Of a DNA stretch of 46,038 nt, positions 13,303-26,868 are shown one piece after another (the first letter of the stretch is position 1; each line of letters begins with the position of its first letter). The translations under genes were made by a program, and so were the position numbers. The notes under the pieces are model-generated. The model ran no database searches and was not told the origin of the DNA. It was given only the letters and a program-made list of their open reading frames with translations. Source of the DNA: Bodo saltans (lineage: Eukaryota; Euglenozoa; Kinetoplastea; Eubodonida; Bodonidae); the NCBI GenBank assembly GCA_001460835.1, contig CYKH01001432.1:12001-58038 (forward strand). Reading direction: 5' to 3'.

Positions 13303-16300
13303 ATGAGTTTTACACAGTCAGATGCCGAAGAATTACGAAGGAGTGAGTCCCTACTGATCCATCCCAACGCAACGTCATCGTCGCACAAAGATCAGTCGAG
13401 GAGAATGTACCCCAGCTACGTCATCAAGGCGTACCGGTACATGGTATCCTATGTCCTTCAATACTACGCCAACGTATTACACACCGAAGAGATTGCAATC
13501 TGGCAGTCAGTGTTAAACATGCAGCAACACGATGCAGTCGGCATGATGGAACTGGAGGAGGAAGAAGTGTGTGAGGATCGTGGTGCATCAGGGCCGCTGG
13601 TTGGCGGGCAGTACGAAACACATCATAGAAACAGACATAGCGTGGAAGATCATATCGAGCAATCGTCGTCCTCGCAAGAAAAAAGAGATACGCAGCAACA
13701 ACATCAACATCAACATCAACAACAACAACGTGATTACCACCGATGGGCAATGGAAGATCTTCTCCTTCGACTTGCGTGCCGCAAACCAGACTGGTTCTCC
13801 GTAGCGCGTTTGAACGACTCCTACGCCGATCTGATGTCATCATTAATTGCAAGGGAGGTCCAGAAAGCAACAGCTTCTGCTGGCGACGATGATGAGGACA
13901 ACCTTGTTGTGGCGGCTGCCTCAGCGTTGGAAGGGGGGACGTCGCCCCTGCCAGTGCAGGTTGTGGTGGATAGATTGGCCTCGTGTCCGGTGCACCCGAG
14001 GGGCAGCGGCAACAAGGCAATCGAGGGGCAGAATGTGGTGTGCCTGCTTACAGGAACAGACATCGCTGATATTTTTTCGCGGAAGGAGAAAGTCATGGCA
14101 ATGGAGCTCATGTCGTGCCTCAGTAAATACAGCTTGCGGGAAATAGCATTGCTGCTCGCACAAAATGTTGGATCGCATCTTCTTTCGACCGTCGTCGCGT
14201 CGCCAACGCAGCAGCAGCAGCAGCAATCGGAAGCGAACGCGGGCTCGAACGAGAAAAAGAAGTCTCGAGGCAACAAAGCAGCATCGCGTAATGTGACAAA
14301 AGGTGCATCTGGAGGAGAACGAGAGCATGACGACGTCGTATTAGCGGCAACGGCACCGCAGCAAAAAGAAGTTCGCCGAGGATCCTCCACAACACTTCCA
14401 GATACCAAATCTGGATTAATGGACTTTATTTTTGAAGCAGGTAGTCAAGACACCCAATTTCCCCACATTTGGGATGAAGCAGTTGGCCCAATCGTGCGCG
14501 TGCACCCAATGGTCAAGAAGTCTCTACGGTTGCTGATGTCGCTGTTTCACGTTGTCACAGAGTACTTTCCTGTGAGTGCTGGAGGAGGCGGTGGCGGTGC
14601 TGGTGGGTCGGAGGCGGTTGCCACCCAATCGCCGCTTCCATCGTCCAACATTGCCGTCTTAGTCACGCTTGGGAATGTTCGCCTGCCCATGATGTCCAAA
14701 CTTCCCATGTTTTCATTCCAAGATCTCGCTGAGGCTGTCACTGAGAAGTTGCTGCTGGCATCAGCAGGTGGTGGTGGTGGCAGTTCATTCGTCCTTCCTG
14801 CGATTCATCCGTCTGTATTTCGGAGCAGCGTTGGAAGTAACGAACGGCTAGTTCTGTTTTCTCATCGCGCCGATCTGGAGTTGTACATGGAGGGGCTTCA
14901 GCTGAGCGCTGAGATGTTTGACGTGTGCGAAGGATATGCACGATTCAGGATGCGCGACACAGACTGGGCTAGTACACTGATCGCTCGCTGCAAGAAGGCT
15001 TTCTCGCAAATCCGGCGACTCTCGACCAGCAGACAAATTGAGGCGGTCACTGCCGAAACGAAGCGTGCTGCCAATTACCTTCACATGCCCTCCCCTGGCT
15101 CGACTCGCAAGCGAGGGCGCGATCAGGCATCTTCCACGGTTGCAGCCAGCGGCACTTCATCGGCACCCTCTTTGCCATCGTTTATTTCAGTTCCGCAAGC
15201 ATTACAGAGGTATGGATTTCATGCGTACCATTTGACGCGATACTTACCGATGCACGTATGGATGCGCTGCGCTGAGTACTTGGTGGAAATGCTATCCATG
15301 CAGCGCCGCTACGAGGAGTGTCACATTTGGCTGAAAGTTCTCACCGAAGAGCCCGTGTATCAAGTATGCGCATCGACATCGACGAAAATGATGACGACAT
15401 CATCAACAACAGCTTCCTCCACCACTCCTGTGTTTCGTATGTGGTATCGCTACCAAGCGAGGGGTCGGTGGTTTCATCGCATCGGTCAGAATTTGGTGCA
15501 CCAAGGACACCACGCCCAAGCACTGAAGCTCATGGAGACATGTCTCGAGGAATGCAGTTCGCTATGCTGTGCCGGCTCAGCAGCTCAAGACCAACTGCGT
15601 GCTGTTTCGGAGCGAAGCTATCGGATGATGAGAGGGATGTTAGACGACTTCAACACAAGCGGCGGCGGCGGCAACAGCGCAGAGGGAGGAGCGACGACAT
15701 CAGCCACAGTAGTTGTTGGGTGGTCGCGCGATACGTGCCAGTATCACGCACTCATGCAGCGACAGCAGGAACACTTCTTACGGCGCTCCGATCGAATGAC
15801 GATGGAGCGTCTCCTCGTACGGCTGCACAAACCCCCACGTCGATGGTGCGCGTTGCCAAAGCATGTTCTTATTTCTACCGTAAAGGAAGCCCGTCCGCTG
15901 TATCTCAACGGACATAAAGATGACCTTGCCGGAGGTGGGTGGAATGACGAGTCGCTCAGCAAAACTGCTTGCTCCGTGGAGTCTCACGTACTTCGTTGGT
16001 TTGTAGACCGAGGGAGGGGGCGACGAGAAAAGGGATGGGCCGGGGTGCACTGCGAGGGGTCGTGGATTGGTGCTCTTACGCGTGTTGTGTTTGCAGAAGC
16101 GTTTGCATGGCATCCACTGTTCCTCTCATCAAATGATGATGATGACGAACGAAGGAGAAGGAACATGAACGATGCAGCAGCATCGATCGAAGAACATCAC
16201 CACAATCAGCGTGCGCCGTTTATTTGGCTTTCACCCTTCCAAGATGAGCCGCTCGATGCGCATGATATTCTCAACTTCATTGGACGGCGTCGTGAGGTGA

Positions 16301-17271
16301 TAGCGGAATGCATTCGAACACTGCGAGGGATGACCCAAGAGGCGTTCGTTGAGTTTGTGCAATCTAGAACTGTGATCCCACAGGCAGTTCAAGACGCGGA
16401 CATGAATGAGGCCGAGCGGGAGCGCCATGAGGCCGAGGAGAACGAGAACAACGCGAAACCCGGCGTTGACGGCGAGACACACCAAGCAGATGATGAGCAG
16501 GCGCCGATGAAAGGGGAACATGTGGGGGCTGCTCTAGACGAGTGCTGCGACAAGGAGGAGCTTGGTGACGCTGCTGCAGCTGCATGCAGTGAAGAACGTA
16601 TGTCAAATCTTGGCGATGTCGACGACGATGTCGCCCTCTTCGACGATGACGACTATAATAATCCTATCCATCAGCCACACGACGAAGATGTTGTTCAGCT
16701 TCACCAAGATGATCAGCGTGAGGACAATGATGTTCATTCTCATCACGACGAGGGAACTCAAAACGAACATGCGGCACGCTCGACGGTTCATCAGGTAAAT
16801 ATTTCCGGCATTCCACAGCTACGCGCAATGGCTCGATGTATTCCTATTGAACCGTTGTGCAAGCTTTACGAAGAGATGTTTCTATCTGAGCCTTCAGAAG
16901 GGCATGTCGTACGTTTCTCTGGGTGGCCTGACCTAGCCGTGTGGCGAATCGTTGAGTCAGCTTCCGCACCATCGTCGTCGTCGAAGCAGAAATACAGCAA
17001 GAATGAATTTTGCCTTGTCGAGGTGAAGTCTCCAACGGATAAGCTAAGCGACAAACAGATTGCTGTGAACGACATGCTGATTCGCGCAGGGTTTGATATC
17101 TCAGTAGCGTGTGTAGTGAACAAGAAAGTCATTGACGCCACCAAAGCACCACGGACGCGTATTGTGACGCGCCAGGGCACTGCTGCTGCTGCCGTTGCGC
17201 AAGTCCAATTGACAAGGAGAAGCTCAAGTAGCTTTGTTCGCGGAACGGCGACAAACCCTGTGGAGTTGTAG
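13303..17271 (+). CDS. FAN1: FAN1-type structure-specific nuclease (VRR-NUC domain)
   Basis: Homologue of Fanconi-associated nuclease 1, a 5' flap endonuclease and 5'-3' exonuclease for interstrand crosslink and stalled-fork repair in the nucleus. The order of FAN1 parts is visible: an N-terminal domain with LLRLACRKPDWFSVARL, a TPR-like part with WFHRIGQNLVHQGHHAQAL, then the split VRR-NUC domain. Expected catalytic residues are present: E918 in VHCEGSW, D1210 in GWPDLAVW, E1240 and K1242 in EVKSP, and Q1252 in LSDKQ. I chose the start MSFTQSDAEE because the upstream in-frame ATG (13240) precedes the likely splice acceptor. At 1322 residues it is longer than human FAN1 (about 1017), mainly from a Q/H tract, glycine/serine linkers and an acidic insert of about 140 residues before the PD motif. 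The N-terminal UBZ zinc finger of animal FAN1 is not seen. Confidence 0.93.
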   Translation: MSFTQSDAEELRRSESLLIHPNATSSSHKDQSRRMYPSYVIKAYRYMVSYVLQYYANVLHTEEIAIWQSVLNMQQHDAVGMMELEEEEVCEDRGASGPLVGGQYETHHRNRHSVEDHIEQSSSSQEKRDTQQQHQHQHQQQQRDYHRWAMEDLLLRLACRKPDWFSVARLNDSYADLMSSLIAREVQKATASAGDDDEDNLVVAAASALEGGTSPLPVQVVVDRLASCPVHPRGSGNKAIEGQNVVCLLTGTDIADIFSRKEKVMAMELMSCLSKYSLREIALLLAQNVGSHLLSTVVASPTQQQQQQSEANAGSNEKKKSRGNKAASRNVTKGASGGEREHDDVVLAATAPQQKEVRRGSSTTLPDTKSGLMDFIFEAGSQDTQFPHIWDEAVGPIVRVHPMVKKSLRLLMSLFHVVTEYFPVSAGGGGGGAGGSEAVATQSPLPSSNIAVLVTLGNVRLPMMSKLPMFSFQDLAEAVTEKLLLASAGGGGGSSFVLPAIHPSVFRSSVGSNERLVLFSHRADLELYMEGLQLSAEMFDVCEGYARFRMRDTDWASTLIARCKKAFSQIRRLSTSRQIEAVTAETKRAANYLHMPSPGSTRKRGRDQASSTVAASGTSSAPSLPSFISVPQALQRYGFHAYHLTRYLPMHVWMRCAEYLVEMLSMQRRYEECHIWLKVLTEEPVYQVCASTSTKMMTTSSTTASSTTPVFRMWYRYQARGRWFHRIGQNLVHQGHHAQALKLMETCLEECSSLCCAGSAAQDQLRAVSERSYRMMRGMLDDFNTSGGGGNSAEGGATTSATVVVGWSRDTCQYHALMQRQQEHFLRRSDRMTMERLLVRLHKPPRRWCALPKHVLISTVKEARPLYLNGHKDDLAGGGWNDESLSKTACSVESHVLRWFVDRGRGRREKGWAGVHCEGSWIGALTRVVFAEAFAWHPLFLSSNDDDDERRRRNMNDAAASIEEHHHNQRAPFIWLSPFQDEPLDAHDILNFIGRRREVIAECIRTLRGMTQEAFVEFVQSRTVIPQAVQDADMNEAERERHEAEENENNAKPGVDGETHQADDEQAPMKGEHVGAALDECCDKEELGDAAAAACSEERMSNLGDVDDDVALFDDDDYNNPIHQPHDEDVVQLHQDDQREDNDVHSHHDEGTQNEHAARSTVHQVNISGIPQLRAMARCIPIEPLCKLYEEMFLSEPSEGHVVRFSGWPDLAVWRIVESASAPSSSSKQKYSKNEFCLVEVKSPTDKLSDKQIAVNDMLIRAGFDISVACVVNKKVIDATKAPRTRIVTRQGTAAAAVAQVQLTRRSSSSFVRGTATNPVEL
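13690..13731 (+). repeat. CAA/CAT codon tract (Gln/His-rich) in FAN1
   Basis: Consecutive CAG/CAA and CAT codons give an alternating glutamine/histidine run between the conserved N-terminal FAN1 helices and the RKPDWF motif. It lies in a non-conserved loop and probably varies in length between alleles. Confidence 0.75.
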
Positions 17272-18949: not shown

Positions 18950-20518
18950 ATGACACAATTCTTTTCGAAGATGCGTGATGTTGCACTCCTGTTGACCTTC
19001 GTGCCGTTCATAGCAGTTGTGATCGCACTCGATCGGCGATTGAGGCTACCGTGGGGGTGGCTTTTGGAACTGTCATTGCCGCGGACTATGGAAGACCTCC
19101 TCGCAAGGCCTGAGCAAATCCTTGATTGCATGAAGCGAGCTGGCTCCGCACCACCGAACGCTGTTTTTGTGTCGTTTAACGCTGGCGGTGGCTCTGAGAC
19201 TGAGCCTGGGAAAGACAAGAGCACTGTGAAGGGCATCATCAAGTTTCGCTTTGTGGATTCGGTCCAAGGGCAAAGCAACGGGACGAGCCTCGTGAGTCGG
19301 AGCGTGTTTATCAAAATTCCAACGGGGCGTGGGGTGTCAGCCTTCTTCCGCGCGATTGCCGCTACGTTTGTCCCTGTACAGAAAGAGATTGCATTTTATC
19401 AGCGTATCGTCCCAGCGCTGAAGCGCACAATTGTCGCATCTCCGTTGCCTCTAACCAGTAGCTCACAACAGCAGCTCGCAGTAGTAGTGAATGATGCAGG
19501 CGTGGAATCCTCCATGCCGCTGAACGTACCCCTTTGCTTGTACGCCGGCAGGAATCGTTGGCTGGATCGCACCCTGTTGATCTTCGAAGAAATTGACACA
19601 CGAGAGCTTGTGCCGATTCCTGACTGGAAAGGAGTCACCACCAACCAGCTATTTTCTCAGTTGCAAAACGCGTCTGTTCTGCACGCGCTTTCCTGGAACA
19701 TATGTAATGCTGTACCACTGACACCCAACAAACCATCCACATCATCGGCAACAGCATCAGTGTCGCCACTGGCAGAGGCCATCTCGTTCATTAAAGATCG
19801 AAACGGCATCAAGTGGTTAGTGGGCGTGATGGACCTTGTGCAGCATAAATTGACGCCAGCGGAGCGTAGCATTTGGAACGCGCTGATTCAAGTGTTTAGC
19901 ACTTCCTTGTACAAAGACGTACCGATGTGCTTGTCGCATGCGGATTGCCGTCCGGGAAATATGCTGTACCGCAAAGGCTCAGAGACCGCAGCAGCTCCAC
20001 TGAAAAGTAACTGTGTTGTGACGGACTGGGAAGCAGTCGCTGTGACGCCCTATCTATGGGATTGCGCATATGCCATGGTACTTGGACTGGATACAAAAAA
20101 GCGCCGAAGCGAACAGCGTGACATCGTCGCATCGTACCTAAAACTGCTGTCGGATCAGCAGCAATCTCAACCGGTTGCCGGAGGCACCGCGGTGCGTCAG
20201 ATCCCTTCGGTCGATGAAGCGATGAGCCTCTTGCCGTGGGTGTACCTCCTCGTGCAGTACTACGCTTGGATTTTAGATCAAATTGGGGGCGTCGGCGATG
20301 AGCAGGGCAACTCCTCGAATGACATGAAAGTGTGGCGTCAGCGTGTGCGAGAGATGCTTCGGTTGGATGTCTTTGGAGCAACGGAGAAGGACGAGGATGA
20401 CCATGGCACTGTTCTTCGACATGACGCTCCAGTAGTGGCTGCACTATTGAAAATGCCAGGAGTGACGGCGCAGCATTTTATCGAATACCAGCGCAAGGTG
20501 CTGAAAGAGCTCGAATAA
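18950..20518 (+). CDS. Membrane-anchored APH/choline-kinase-like phosphotransferase
   Basis: The 522-residue protein has the protein-kinase-like small-molecule phosphotransferase signature. SHADCRPGNML gives the Brenner-type catalytic loop (H330, D332, N337), and TDWEAVAVTPYLWDCAY gives the metal-binding D359, equivalent to the DFG aspartate, followed by the usual W/D context. FIKIPTGRG near residue 120 may hold the ATP-anchoring lysine. Residues about 10-28 (LLLTFVPFIAVVIAL) form a hydrophobic N-terminal anchor, unusual for this family, suggesting ER or other membrane attachment. The closest named groups are ecdysteroid-kinase-like (EcKL/DUF1679), choline kinase-like and aminoglycoside phosphotransferase-like enzymes; the substrate cannot be chosen. 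I start at 18950 rather than at 18905 because the splice-like AG at 18934-18935 follows a T/C tract and removes the earlier start. Confidence 0.82.
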   Translation: MTQFFSKMRDVALLLTFVPFIAVVIALDRRLRLPWGWLLELSLPRTMEDLLARPEQILDCMKRAGSAPPNAVFVSFNAGGGSETEPGKDKSTVKGIIKFRFVDSVQGQSNGTSLVSRSVFIKIPTGRGVSAFFRAIAATFVPVQKEIAFYQRIVPALKRTIVASPLPLTSSSQQQLAVVVNDAGVESSMPLNVPLCLYAGRNRWLDRTLLIFEEIDTRELVPIPDWKGVTTNQLFSQLQNASVLHALSWNICNAVPLTPNKPSTSSATASVSPLAEAISFIKDRNGIKWLVGVMDLVQHKLTPAERSIWNALIQVFSTSLYKDVPMCLSHADCRPGNMLYRKGSETAAAPLKSNCVVTDWEAVAVTPYLWDCAYAMVLGLDTKKRRSEQRDIVASYLKLLSDQQQSQPVAGGTAVRQIPSVDEAMSLLPWVYLLVQYYAWILDQIGGVGDEQGNSSNDMKVWRQRVREMLRLDVFGATEKDEDDHGTVLRHDAPVVAALLKMPGVTAQHFIEYQRKVLKELE

Positions 20519-21541: not shown

Positions 21542-21629
21542 CGATTTTTTTTTTTGCTTGCTGTGATTCCTTTTGATATGTCATGTGTTGTTTTCCTGAT
21601 GTCATTCTTTCTTGTTGTGGATCGTGCAG

Positions 21630-21665
21630 TTTTTGTTTTCTTGCCCAATTATTTTGCTTCTTGAG
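21630..21665 (+). promoter_or_regulatory. Probable trans-splice acceptor for the Dna2-like gene
   Basis: A T-rich tract with interspersed C (TTTTTGTTTTCTTGCCC, then TTTTGCTTCTTG) ends at AG 21664-21665, 41 nt before the ATG at 21706. It makes the longer in-frame start at 21583 unlikely. Confidence 0.5.
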
Positions 21666-21705
21666 AAAGGATTATCGCGAGCAGAGGGGAACCCCCTACG
21701 TTATT

Positions 21706-24700
21706 ATGTCCACCGAGCGCTCTATTTCTGTATGTGACATGTCAGAGCAGACGGTGCTGACACCGTGGAAGCTTCACGCCAGCTTCGTCCTTGGCAAACA
21801 CGACCTGAGTAACAAGACACCCTACGTGCAGTTTCTTCTGGGAGATGAAACTGGCACTCTTTCGTGTGTCGCGTTTGGTGCAGCTGCACACTCTATCGTC
21901 GCTCACCACAACAACCAAGCTGATGCCAGCGCGCGGTCAACACCTTGCACCTTCCGTGTACTACAACCCAGCAGGCAAGTCACGGTGAAGGATCGTGATA
22001 CCAAGTTTGCGATTTACGTTCCCGCGTCACTGCCTTCTCAACGATTATCGAATTTGCAATTGCAAATCGGAAATTTTGCAAAGGTTGGCATCGATGTTGT
22101 GATACATTTCTCGCGGACGACAAGAGTCAACAACGATGTAGCCATTCAGCAACTTGAGCGTGGCGTTCAGGAGCTCCGCGTCCAGCAGCTGGAAGGATCT
22201 CTTCGCCCCCGTTTTGACCCTTTGTCCGTTTCCAACATTTCTGATACGTCAGCAGGCCGCCCATGGGAAGTGATTGCACAGTTTGTGCATCGTGGTGACA
22301 ACTTCGCCGGCCCTAAAGTTCCCTACGTTCAATTCCTCCTCGAGGACTCCACCGCAACCATCTCGTGTGTTGCGTATGGGCAACCGGCAAAGTCGATTTT
22401 CGACATGTTCCTCGGCGTTGTTTCTTCACAAGGTGGGGCCTCGCGGCCGCTGCCGCAGTGCTCTCTGCGTATCGCAAATCCAAAGCAAGTCATTGTGAAG
22501 CAACGAAATCCGCGGTTTGCGATGACTCCACTCAATCCCCACAGCAACATGTCGGCCTATGAGCTTCAGATCAAGGACACTGCTAAGGTGGGAGAGGACG
22601 TACTGATCGAACTGACCCGTGGTAGCCGCGATGCGGTCATGGGAGACCTTGAGCGGGGTGTTGCGGGGCTGCAAGTGAGGAGCAGCAGCCAGGACAAACC
22701 AGCACCAACCGCTCAACCGACCGCCCATCAACCAGCTCCTCCAGCGCAAGCCGCCACGGTGGCATTGCCAGCACGCAGCTCCCATAGTGACCCGCAGCAT
22801 GCCGTAGGAACTCCTCATGAAGTTCCCCAAACTACGGATGCCGCATCAAACGTCGTTGGGGGTCGGTGGGAGTACATTTTCAAACCCAGCTGCTTTGGGG
22901 GGCACCACATGTTCAAGTGCTCCATTCGCCTTCGCCGCGAAAATCTCCGCTGGGTGCCGAGCGGAGGCCACTCCTCCACACGTATTTCCGATGCTGCCCC
23001 AGAACCGTCGTTGTCCCACTCGAAACTCATTACTGGGCGAGGTGACGTGTTCGAGGCAAAAGTCCTCGAGCAGCTGCATGCCGTTGGTCAAGCAGTCGAC
23101 TATGTAGGCGGCATCGACAAGCAAGTGCTTAAGGACAAGTCCGAAACGGAACTTATTGGTTTCCTTCGCGACAGCTTAAAAGCATGCTCTGATCGCTTGC
23201 AACGCCAACCGCCATTGTCGTCAGTGGTTCTCGCGCAGGTATGTCTTCCCGTGCCACCTGCCCTTCAAGCTCATTTCAACGCCATTCTTGTGTCAGGCTG
23301 CGGCGCCAACCTAGTGACGTTAATATTCCCTCGGTGCTTCCCGGACTTCATAGTCGTCACCCGCAATGCCAATGGTGTTCTCACCCTACGCGTGGCCGAC
23401 TGCAAGTCGTCCGCCAAGCGCAAGAAGTGCCACGAACTTCAGATTTCGTTTTACGTGGCGTGCCTTCAGGAGTGGTTTAAGGATGACCCGATGGTCAATA
23501 TCGATGCAGTTATCGGTGAAGTATGGCTGCCTCCTACTGTTCACAATGAGCCTTACCATGCAGACTCGTTTGCGCTCGGCAACCCATTGCTTGCGGGGTT
23601 AGATGAATTCTTTTCGTCTGATCTGGTGAGAGCGCTCAAGCAGCTACCGACACAACAAGGCACGGGCGAGAGTTCCGCGCTGACTGGTATCGAAGATGCG
23701 TGGCTTGCGAAGCGCACTACGTGCGAGGGCTGCTCGTTTTTGAGCAACTGCAAGAACAATTATTCGACTCGCCACATCCTTGGCGCACACGCTGCTGCTG
23801 CTGTCACAGGTGACACCGCGGCACATCATCTGCAGAACCGACTTTGGGAGGCGTGGCCGCAGCATTGCCGCAGCTATGACGTCGCTCAGCGTGAACATGA
23901 CACAACTCACGTCCTCCAAGGCACCCCTCGCATGAAGCTGGAAAAAGAGCACGCCAACGCCGTCGATTTCGTTTATCTTCGTAAAGGAGACGTCACGACG
24001 AGGAAGAAGATCTTCGTGTTTCTTTCTCGAGGGAATCCAAGCACCGCTCCAAGCAACCATGACAACGAATTGCTGAACTCTCACGTCGACGACGACGTCG
24101 TATCGTTCACGTTCGAGGAGAGTCGAGGTGCTCTTTTGCACACGAATACGACGCAGCTGCTCGATCGGCTCTTTGTTGACAACGTGCTGAGCGCATCTGT
24201 TGATTTGGTGTGCTGGAGTGAAGATCAACGGCGCCTCTTGCGGCGTGTGGTGGTCGAGGGTGCACGAGCACACCCGAACCGATCCGACTGCCTTCGACTT
24301 GCCGCAGCGATTTTCGAAGACTTTTCTTTGCTGCACAACCATGGCACATTCAACCCTCGTGCACTGGAGTCCGCCAGCATCTGCGCGGTCATCAAGGAAT
24401 CCTTTGAAGCTCTCTTAGATTTGTCAGAGCCGCTTCCACTTCGTTTTGGTGACGCAGTAGGGATCAAGATTGGGAGCGATGGGCCTGTTGCCACCCCTTC
24501 GTCGTATTCCATCGACGATCTTTTTGCGTCGCACTTTTCCTCATCGCCTCGACAAGACGCAACCACTCCTTCTCCGTCCCCGATTCAGATTCTTCAGTGC
24601 CTAGGAGCGCAGTGGAACCACTTTTTGCAGATCATCGCTGACTCTCAGTTTGTTCTTGAGCCGCCTCCTCAGTTTACAAGCGATGGAGTTCCCTCCACCC

Positions 24701-26868
24701 TTGGTGAATTGGTTCGGCAAAATGTTGTACCTCGCAATGCACTTGGTCGTTTTCTGACTCGCGTCACGAAATTTAGTGCCTTTGGAAGCCTGGAGGAATG
24801 CCTTCAGTCCTTCCGGCAACCTGTGCTACTGTCAAGCGCCATCGGAGATGACATTGAGCGGATGACCCCCTCCCAGGAAAAAATAGCTTCCGGGGAACAG
24901 ACGGCCCCAACATTTGTTCGGCGCCTGACGTGGTCAGAAAGAGACCAGTCTCGACTCTCTGTGGCGGCGGGATCAGGACTTCTCGGGTCGTACCGCTACT
25001 TTGTGAGTATCGATGACGTTACTGGCGTTGAGCAAATATGGGATTCCTATGGTTCCTATTTTGGTAGCGGCCGCTGCGATGTCGTGTGCACTTTACCGTC
25101 CGAGGACGCAGCAGCTCCTGGCACAATTGTTGGCATTCATCCAGCGTCGAACAAAGCGTCGAGGCAGCCGCTCCTGCTGACCAATCGGTTTTTGGATTAC
25201 AACACTGGCAAAGTGCTTGCAGCACTCGACGCGGAGAGTGAGAATGAACCGTCCGCAATCTTGGCGATGCTGCTGAATGATAGAAGTTCACATGCTCCAG
25301 AACGACCTGACGTCGACGATGTTGTTGACAAGTGGGTGACAAGCCGCGGACAACAGCGAACGCCATCGGCAGACCAACTTCCAGTCTTGAAGCATTTGAT
25401 GAAGGCGCCCCTCACTTTACTGTGGGGCCCTCCTGGGACTGGGAAAACGACGACTATCTCGCACCTGCTGAAGTGCGTGGGTGAGTTGGGACTTCCCGAA
25501 TTTGCAGGAACTGAGCGTAAGCCTCGCATTCTCATTACCGCCACGACGAAAGACGCTCTGCACGCCATCATGCTGTCACTGTGGAAGCTTTTTGGTGGTG
25601 CCACAACAACAGCGGCGAACAAGGAGGATGACGTCGCGACGAACCTATACGAAGCGCCCGCCTCTTCGGTGCTTGGTGCACACCTGTCATCTGTGGTGTA
25701 TCTTGATGGAGATGACCTCAAGTCGTCGGCAGCAGGAAACAAGACCCATAGAGCTCTGACGGCAGAGGGAGTTGTCGTGCTGACCACCCCGTGGCAGGCA
25801 CACAAGCTATTGACCGATAAAAAGCATTGCAACAAGTTCAAGCCGTTTGACGTGCTCATCATTGACGAGGCGTCGCAAATGCCCGTGGCACATTCACTTG
25901 TCGTGAGTCGCTTGCTACGGGGAGCGACTTCGTCGACGGAGTTTCCTCGAGTGCTGTGTGCGGGCGACTTGCTGCAACTACCTCCGATTCTCCCTGAAAA
26001 CATCAGCGCGAGCATTGCGCAACTTACAAAGGAGCTGCTCGGGAGGGGAGCTGCTACCGCAGCACCGCAGTCCCCGCTACTGGCACTGCTAGCGTCATGC
26101 TCTGGGTCTATCCTTCAAGCACTCATGCGGAAGTGTGATGGGACTAGACTGGTGGATGCGAGTGACTTCATCGAACGCCGTGGTGCGGGGCAAGGGCTCC
26201 CATGGGAGAACTTGATCCAACTGAAGACATCACGGCGCTCTGTTCCATCCATCGTCGCGTTCGTCGCCGAGATCTATCCTGCGGGATTGCTCCATGGTGG
26301 CCCGTCACTCGACGTCGGGCGTGCCTTTTTACAGTCGCCGAAGCTTCTACAGCCTCAACATCAACAGCGTGCAAGTCCCCACCACACCTTGTCCCTCCAT
26401 GAAACGCTCAACGAGACCAACACAGTTGTGGAGCTTATCTATGGGCTTCTCCACCGCTTGGAAAGGGATACCACGGTCCACATTGTCACACCCCACCGCC
26501 GGCAGCGACAGTCCATTCAACTAGCACTGGAGCGTACGGTTGGTGGTTTGACGGCCACATCAAAGGGTGGCGCTGGAACGTTGACGATCGCGGTGTCGAC
26601 CACGGAGAAGAGCCAAGGCTTAGAGGCCGACATTGTCGTGCTTGCAATGGCCGATGGTATTTCGTATGACTCGCCGTTTCCCTTCAACTTGTTCCGTTTG
26701 AACGTTGCCGTCTCGCGCGCAAAGCATCAAGTCGTTTTGCTGGTGAAGTCGAAGACCAAGATCCTTGAGGCACTGGACAACGTTGCGGAGCTGACGACGG
26801 CCCCGAAAGCGAGCGTGGCGGGAACCAAACTGCTGAAGCGCCTCGTCGAAAGCAGTGTAGCATGGTAG
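21706..26868 (+). CDS. Dna2-like nuclease-helicase with two N-terminal RPA-like OB folds
   Basis: A 1720-residue protein. Two tandem OB-type domains open it (about residues 20-168 and 186-325). Each starts with PW, carries PYVQFLLxDxTxTxSCVA and ends in LERGV, and each resembles the RPA70 ssDNA-binding fold. A Pro/Ala/Gln linker follows. Next is a RecB/Dna2-type PD-(D/E)xK nuclease: PDF (D547), VADCK (D565, K567), QISFY (Q579, Y583), and a Fe-S motif CEGCSFLSNC (C673, C676, C682) whose fourth cysteine is probably upstream (MFKCS). A middle region of about 450 residues is unassigned. The SF1B helicase has Walker A GPPGTGKT (K1247), DEASQ (1387-1391), GDLLQLPP, SQGLEAD (Q1637) and NVAVSRAK. The expected role is ssDNA flap or end processing in replication and repair. 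It may be a relative of bacterial RecB-nuclease/helicase fusions rather than the Dna2 orthologue. Confidence 0.87.
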   Translation: MSTERSISVCDMSEQTVLTPWKLHASFVLGKHDLSNKTPYVQFLLGDETGTLSCVAFGAAAHSIVAHHNNQADASARSTPCTFRVLQPSRQVTVKDRDTKFAIYVPASLPSQRLSNLQLQIGNFAKVGIDVVIHFSRTTRVNNDVAIQQLERGVQELRVQQLEGSLRPRFDPLSVSNISDTSAGRPWEVIAQFVHRGDNFAGPKVPYVQFLLEDSTATISCVAYGQPAKSIFDMFLGVVSSQGGASRPLPQCSLRIANPKQVIVKQRNPRFAMTPLNPHSNMSAYELQIKDTAKVGEDVLIELTRGSRDAVMGDLERGVAGLQVRSSSQDKPAPTAQPTAHQPAPPAQAATVALPARSSHSDPQHAVGTPHEVPQTTDAASNVVGGRWEYIFKPSCFGGHHMFKCSIRLRRENLRWVPSGGHSSTRISDAAPEPSLSHSKLITGRGDVFEAKVLEQLHAVGQAVDYVGGIDKQVLKDKSETELIGFLRDSLKACSDRLQRQPPLSSVVLAQVCLPVPPALQAHFNAILVSGCGANLVTLIFPRCFPDFIVVTRNANGVLTLRVADCKSSAKRKKCHELQISFYVACLQEWFKDDPMVNIDAVIGEVWLPPTVHNEPYHADSFALGNPLLAGLDEFFSSDLVRALKQLPTQQGTGESSALTGIEDAWLAKRTTCEGCSFLSNCKNNYSTRHILGAHAAAAVTGDTAAHHLQNRLWEAWPQHCRSYDVAQREHDTTHVLQGTPRMKLEKEHANAVDFVYLRKGDVTTRKKIFVFLSRGNPSTAPSNHDNELLNSHVDDDVVSFTFEESRGALLHTNTTQLLDRLFVDNVLSASVDLVCWSEDQRRLLRRVVVEGARAHPNRSDCLRLAAAIFEDFSLLHNHGTFNPRALESASICAVIKESFEALLDLSEPLPLRFGDAVGIKIGSDGPVATPSSYSIDDLFASHFSSSPRQDATTPSPSPIQILQCLGAQWNHFLQIIADSQFVLEPPPQFTSDGVPSTLGELVRQNVVPRNALGRFLTRVTKFSAFGSLEECLQSFRQPVLLSSAIGDDIERMTPSQEKIASGEQTAPTFVRRLTWSERDQSRLSVAAGSGLLGSYRYFVSIDDVTGVEQIWDSYGSYFGSGRCDVVCTLPSEDAAAPGTIVGIHPASNKASRQPLLLTNRFLDYNTGKVLAALDAESENEPSAILAMLLNDRSSHAPERPDVDDVVDKWVTSRGQQRTPSADQLPVLKHLMKAPLTLLWGPPGTGKTTTISHLLKCVGELGLPEFAGTERKPRILITATTKDALHAIMLSLWKLFGGATTTAANKEDDVATNLYEAPASSVLGAHLSSVVYLDGDDLKSSAAGNKTHRALTAEGVVVLTTPWQAHKLLTDKKHCNKFKPFDVLIIDEASQMPVAHSLVVSRLLRGATSSTEFPRVLCAGDLLQLPPILPENISASIAQLTKELLGRGAATAAPQSPLLALLASCSGSILQALMRKCDGTRLVDASDFIERRGAGQGLPWENLIQLKTSRRSVPSIVAFVAEIYPAGLLHGGPSLDVGRAFLQSPKLLQPQHQQRASPHHTLSLHETLNETNTVVELIYGLLHRLERDTTVHIVTPHRRQRQSIQLALERTVGGLTATSKGGAGTLTIAVSTTEKSQGLEADIVVLAMADGISYDSPFPFNLFRLNVAVSRAKHQVVLLVKSKTKILEALDNVAELTTAPKASVAGTKLLKRLVESSVAW

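Follow-up and report, generated by a model that had tools for sequence, protein, structure and literature searches.

A probable eukaryotic relative of prokaryotic iron-sulfur nuclease-helicases, with a duplicated N-terminal domain, in Bodo saltans

Introduction

Is the large nuclease-helicase of the kinetoplastid Bodo saltans, encoded on the + strand of a 46,038-nucleotide stretch of contig CYKH01001432.1 (positions 12,001 to 58,038; the window), a form of Dna2, the enzyme that the portion of PMC7430649 drawn on here calls both ubiquitous and essential among eukaryotes? The initial annotation took the protein for a Dna2-like enzyme with built-in RPA70-type single-stranded DNA (ssDNA) binding domains, and knew of no published Dna2-like protein with that architecture. 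The explanation favored here, with a probability of roughly 0.65, is that it is a eukaryote-encoded member of a prokaryotic class of iron-sulfur (Fe-S) RecB-type nuclease joined to a superfamily 1B (SF1B) helicase, to whose N-terminal end a domain, probably OB-like and duplicated in tandem, has been added. As understood here, the prokaryotic class includes the bacterial DNA2-like protein Bad and the TM0106-type fusions, as well as pairs of a nuclease and a DpdJ-type helicase.

The Nuclease-Helicase Core

As the initial annotation had it, the N-terminal pair, the nuclease and the helicase lie in one chain, encoded by a single open reading frame (ORF) with the following features:

21706..26868, + strand: whole gene (P0001), 1,720 aa
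21763..22206, + strand: N-terminal tandem copy 1, residues 20-167, possible OB fold
22261..22680, + strand: N-terminal tandem copy 2, residues 186-325, possible OB fold
22681..22857, + strand: Pro/Ala/Gln-rich linker, residues 326-384, by sequence reading
22858..23775, + strand: RecB/Cas4-type PD-(D/E)XK nuclease, residues 385-690, with G446, E450, D547, D565-x-K567, Q579 and Y583
22918..22920, + strand: C405, which lines up with the N-terminal cysteine in the prokaryotic nucleases; candidate for the first Fe-S ligand
23722..23751, + strand: CX2CX5C (C673, C676, C682), remaining candidate Fe-S ligands
23776..25317, + strand: central region, residues 691-1204, without detectable homology, in the same place as the central region of prokaryotic relatives
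25318..26805, + strand: SF1B (Upf1-like) helicase, residues 1205-1700, with Walker A at 25426, DEASQ at 25864 and motif VI at 26695

The nuclease keeps its catalytic residues intact together with the CX2CX5C pattern of an Fe-S-type enzyme noticed earlier (C673-x2-C676-x5-C682), and C405, which had gone unmentioned, brings the candidate Fe-S cysteines to four. In a 26-row alignment of the window protein with 25 prokaryotic rows, C405, G446, E450, D547, D565, K567, Y583, C673, C676 and C682 are invariant and Q579 is nearly so; C405 is nearly invariant in a 24-row alignment (A6), and the cysteine spacing of two prokaryotic rows (L056 and L057) differs from CX2CX5C. The nuclease matches alphaproteobacterial nucleases that adjoin DpdJ-type helicases (hhalign 98%), and the Dna2 model PF08696 gives no match to it at E 10. 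No match to the window was found with TIGR03491 or RNase_H_2 (PF13482) at E 10, in searches whose filters discard most matches above E 0.1. Judged by its sequence, the nuclease is nearer to prokaryotic proteins than to Dna2.

The Upf1/Dna2-type helicase proposed for the C-terminus is borne out by Pfam matches above cut-offs (AAA_11, E 9.9e-14; AAA_12, E 2.8e-13) and by the motifs Walker A (residue 1241), DEASQ (1387) and RLNVAVSRAK (motif VI, 1664). The best PDB matches of the whole protein are UPF1 chains. When compared with 38 other helicase segments, the window helicase scores best with a split Methylorubrum protein (62 bits) and with DpdJ-linked helicases (59 to 35 bits). Its score with mouse DNA2 is only 26 bits, near those with one TM0106 fusion (25.9 bits) and the UPF1 of its own genome (25.2 bits); mouse DNA2 as query scores 28 bits with the window, against 145 with the latter UPF1. 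Two trees, of 20 and 22 rows, place the window beside prokaryotic nuclease-linked helicases (86/78 and 90/73, respectively, not starred). A clade of the window with mouse DNA2 is rejected by the approximately unbiased (AU) test (p 0.029 and 0.036), as judged with one DNA2 sequence on a long branch, and a clade with the split Methylorubrum protein alone is not rejected (p 0.24). Grouping with an unrelated RNA helicase family, which the initial annotation had named as grounds for doubt, was not seen, the window standing apart from the three own-genome Upf1-like genes in the trees, i.e. UPF1 and two others. When a mixed profile of the window and eight prokaryotic helicases is run against the PDB, mouse DNA2 comes out on top by a small margin, in keeping with one wider group that includes them all.

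The spacing within the core was compared as well. The D-x-K aspartate and the Walker A lysine are 682 residues apart in the window and 740-852 apart in four prokaryotic fusions; two TM0106 fusions give 594 and 610. The consulted part of PMC7430649 gives 665 residues from motif III to Walker A in Bad, and describes the Bad central domain as conserved and eukaryotic DNA2 as being without it. From C682 to the Walker A lysine K1247 the window has 565 residues, versus ~240 in mouse Dna2 from the nuclease end (412, in the part of PMC4716839 used) to the Walker A lysine (655); judged by length only, no short Dna2-type beta-barrel and stalk lies between nuclease and helicase. In length of sequence, then, the long nuclease-helicase stretch fits Bad better than Dna2. 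On reading, the middle part was suspected to contain an RNase H-like domain, as TM0106 proteins do, and neither the RNase_H_2 search nor a comparison of middle parts gave this support.

Prokaryotic Relatives

Identity of the window protein to prokaryotic proteins is ~14-34%. Single-chain relatives (L056-L059) have 1,326-1,510 aa with the nuclease first, and two-gene versions also exist. The label DpdJ-linked is taken from L019, the sole pair scanned, in which an SF1B helicase is fused with a DpdJ part (PADLOC DpdJ, 1,738 bits; NCBIfam DpdJ, 329 bits, under its cut-off of 800). In the window, the PADLOC DpdJ model matches nothing but the SF1 helicase part (29 bits), and NCBIfam gives no DpdJ match; the other PADLOC and NCBIfam names found are of other helicase families only, MkoA being best (E 3e-17) and PLuB_AAA (E 1.6e-14) below cut-off.

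TIGR03491-like nucleases, at L016:4680-6968, L019:1985-4309 and further loci, are followed by a large helicase gene; those of L016 and L019 are annotated as hypothetical proteins, and that of L016 (E 8e-10, under cut-off) has no Pfam family at E 0.01. The Methylorubrum gene (L017:1485-5946, on the megaplasmid of M. extorquens AM1) is split over two overlapping frames; Rhizobium and Bradyrhizobium have single-frame relatives, which adjoin DNA methyltransferases. The helicase piece of L017 is matched in 3 of 372 genomes of the class of genome G001 at E 1e-10. The window core found none among 385 genomes of that class at E 1e-6, a result that is uninformative because G001 itself holds a relative (L022) and yet was unlisted. 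No viral relative was confirmed in two scans, phages giving one weak helicase match (E 2e-3).

The N-Terminal Tandem Domain

The two N-terminal copies noticed at the outset are a true tandem pair: they share 44% identity across ~150 residues, and their local alignment score of 302 (shuffled mean 41) is reached in 0 of 500 shuffles. Their proposed resemblance to the ssDNA-binding domains of RPA70 is not supported by the searches made. The two-copy sequence retrieves no PDB chain at E 10, and a two-row profile of the copies retrieves three (a ribosomal protein and two Robo1 chains, E 0.8-1.2), none an OB chain. Against DBD-A and DBD-B of the RPA1 of the own genome, human and Ustilago, hhalign scores are equalled by 34 and 21 of 100 column shuffles, respectively. 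The best of the Smith-Waterman comparisons, copy 2 with own RPA1 DBD-A (4 of 500 shuffles as high), is not significant because 14 RPA-type comparisons were tried. RPA70 kinship is not shown by these comparisons.

An OB fold of the copies is nevertheless plausible and moderately favored by Pfam matches, all below curated cut-offs: the pair matches the OB family PF01336 (E 0.006), Ig_3 (E 0.012) and OB_POT1A (E 0.07), copy 2 alone matches OB_POT1A in 3/3 cuts (E 0.026-0.034), and copy 1 alone matches PF01336 in 1/3 cuts (E 0.18), with no OB match in the other two. The AlphaFold2 model is of low confidence (pLDDT 40.7), and no OB chain was recognised among its listed Foldseek matches. A search of the own genome for a second gene with the pair gave, at the sensitivity used, only the gene itself and one match at E 0.66, and plasmids gave no match at E 1. 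Mouse Dna2 has one OB domain (residues 21-122) before its nuclease, and the portion of PMC4716839 relied on here reports that it binds RPA and that no DNA binding was seen; the ligand of the pair may, by analogy, be RPA and not ssDNA.

The own genome has a main RPA1 gene and a second, RPA1-like gene that is divergent (L011 and L076:1674-3731; G000:C564 and C933). Alignment of the main one (462 aa) to human RPA70 starts only at residue 182, and it is therefore without the 70N domain. The second matches Rep-A_N (70N) at 28 bits, over the cut-off, and at 24.1 bits, just under it, in another scan, together with a weak REPA_OB_2 match, and is a candidate carrier of the 70N domain absent from trypanosomatid RPA-1.

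Dna2 in the Bodo Genome

The own genome assembly (G000; 29.3 Mb in 934 contigs) is possibly incomplete. PF08696 finds nothing in this one genome at E 1; among 14 control genomes it gave matches in six, all prokaryotes, one of them over cut-off. AAA_12 finds seven genes, the window gene included, and AAA_11 adds two, by reading an L004-like fragment and an RFC subunit; the names UPF1, MOV10-like and ZNFX1-like given to the own helicase genes likewise come from reading. The mouse DNA2 helicase retrieves four genes, UPF1 best, and the window gene is absent at E 0.001. None of these searches revealed the conventional Dna2 elsewhere in the assembly that the initial annotation had thought might count against its proposal. 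Three defining features of Dna2 were sought in the window protein, a PF08696 match, helicase grouping and a short middle part, and on its sequence it has none of them.

Among the other helicase genes, L007 (G000:C683) is an open frame of 1,441 aa whose SF1 helicase (AAA_12, E 1e-16) is unusual. L004 and L071 (G000:C227 and C228, neighboring contig numbers) are similar genes with CCCH fingers and a Upf1-like helicase by reading; the open frame of L071 stops soon after Walker A.

A broader proposal is that conventional Dna2 was lost and replaced by this prokaryote-derived helicase-nuclease, whose own tandem OB module would bind ssDNA and provide RPA-type loading and polarity control in cis. This is unlikely, and Leishmania, which is stated to encode DNA2 in the part of PMC4912120 consulted, weighs against the absence of Dna2. 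If a Bad-like enzyme does act instead of Dna2, a central enzyme of Okazaki-fragment maturation and resection would have been replaced by a non-orthologous one, and a cis ssDNA-binding pair would allow a direct test of the way in which RPA governs where Dna2-like nucleases cut with respect to polarity.

Alternative Explanations

Several observations weigh against membership in the prokaryotic class with an OB-like extension. The window has the longest end branch in the trees and an odd residue make-up, and its middle part fits prokaryotic relatives in length with no detectable homology to them in sequence. Further, the Ig_3 match, the lack of significant RPA similarity and the lack of an OB chain among the Foldseek matches listed for the low-confidence model would all suit a core of the proposed kind in which the copies are another beta-rich domain, e.g. 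Ig-like, that makes protein contacts only. This is a real but lesser possibility; each copy is matched by an OB family, a different one in each case, in the region of the VQFLLxDxTxTxSCVA motif, and the order W..., hairpin, helix and further strands is, by reading, the OB expectation.

A true but very fast-evolving Dna2 orthologue, with its N-terminal OB domain duplicated and its middle part enlarged, is rather unlikely, given the silence of PF08696, the retrieval by the mouse DNA2 helicase of UPF1 and three other genes in place of the window gene, the AU rejection, the nearness of the nuclease to DpdJ-linked nucleases, and 565 residues where mouse Dna2 has ~240. Kinetoplastids rely on post-transcriptional control, and this, with the Upf1-like signatures and the UPF1 chains in the PDB search, could suggest an RNA-directed Upf1-type helicase with a nuclease for RNA decay or R-loop removal. 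Such a role is very improbable, since RecB/Cas4-type nucleases with conserved cysteines are known as parts of enzymes that act on DNA, and the three own Upf1-like genes branch apart. The prokaryotic nature of the closest relatives in hand might suggest bacterial contamination or an assembly artefact, which is scarcely credible for a gene with such low identity to prokaryotic proteins, lying among the neighbors described below and close to them in base composition.

Proposed Mechanism

The nuclease-helicase of the prokaryotic class proposed here probably works in the manner of Dna2 or Bad. A single DNA strand whose 5' end is free would thread through the Fe-S-stapled nuclease, the SF1B motor would move 5' to 3', and the nuclease would cut the threaded strand; the N-terminal pair might hold ssDNA or RPA at the entrance, and the cellular role might be flap trimming or end resection, as for Dna2, both of these being guesses. 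Domain order, conserved catalytic and cysteine residues, and the sequence kinship of nuclease and helicase are observed, and the Fe-S cluster, activities, polarity and threading are carried over from Bad and Dna2.

The Gene and Its Neighbors

The + strand ORF is uninterrupted from 21583 to 26868. ATG 21706, the start given originally, is likely the true one, and not the upstream in-frame ATG 21583, because T/pyrimidine-rich bases precede the former and the latter sits in a T-rich stretch. One further feature bears on this:

21542..21705, + strand: short T/pyrimidine-rich gap downstream of the deformylase gene

This gap is probably the trans-splice acceptor and 5' untranslated region. The gene is flanked by a peptide deformylase gene on one side and a Mur-ligase-type gene on the other, in a dense, apparently intron-free array of long ORFs, mostly on the + strand, that includes VRR-NUC, SET and UPF0029 genes. 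Its GC (0.54-0.57) and GC3 (0.55-0.62) are close to, and slightly above, those of measured neighbors (0.50-0.53 and 0.54-0.59). Codon usage lends no support because the true frame could not be separated from shifted frames. The 1,322-aa ORF at 13303-17271, ~4.4 kb upstream, has a C-terminal VRR-NUC domain (PF08774, E 3e-10) and is what we take to be a FAN1-like nuclease candidate; an ecdysteroid-kinase-like (EcKL) gene (18950-20518, E 1e-8) adjoins the deformylase gene.

Comparison with Known Systems

The original proposal stands for the tandem copies, the Fe-S-type nuclease, the SF1B helicase and their single chain, and lacks support for RPA70 kinship and Dna2 membership. RPA70 DBD-A/DBD-B resemble the window in being a tandem pair and, by reading, in a motif around D.[ST]..[IL]...A[FY], but show no significant similarity to it in sequence. 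Eukaryotic Dna2 shares domain order, an Fe-S-type nuclease and an SF1B helicase, and differs in sequence kinship, PF08696, middle-part length and, in mouse, one OB domain versus two N-terminal copies.

The TM0106 family (TIGR03491) shares a D-x-K nuclease, CX2CX5C and a Upf1-like helicase with the window, which is unmatched by its models. DpdJ-linked pairs (L013, L016, L019 and further loci) match in nuclease profile and helicase score, but are two genes where the window has a fusion. Bad of Geobacillus, likened to the window by published description and spacing rather than by sequence, has a four-cysteine iron-staple RecB-type nuclease, a large central region and a C-terminal SF1B helicase in one chain, and the predicted window protein is of this architecture. 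As described in the excerpt of PMC7430649 used, Bad differs in its 1,245 aa and N-terminal nuclease (motif III D150), with no space for a 340-residue front part, and in adjoining, in Geobacilli, a predicted DNA methyltransferase, none of which was found among the window-gene neighbors scanned. Similar in layout are the fusions of Rhizobium (L056), Bradyrhizobium (L057), Chlorohelix (L058) and Haladaptatus (L059), single chains of the same order whose helicases fall on the window's side of the tree; Chlorohelix matches in both nuclease and helicase, and L056 and L057 adjoin DNA methyltransferases. Unlike the window protein, these fusions start with the nuclease and lack the N-terminal tandem domain.

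No description of this protein appears by title or opening of abstract among the literature matches listed. The claim of a novel architecture is weakened as regards a front OB domain as such, because mouse Dna2 already has one before its nuclease (PMC4716839, in part); what is new here is that, in a eukaryote, a core of this type carries a tandem domain at its N-terminus.
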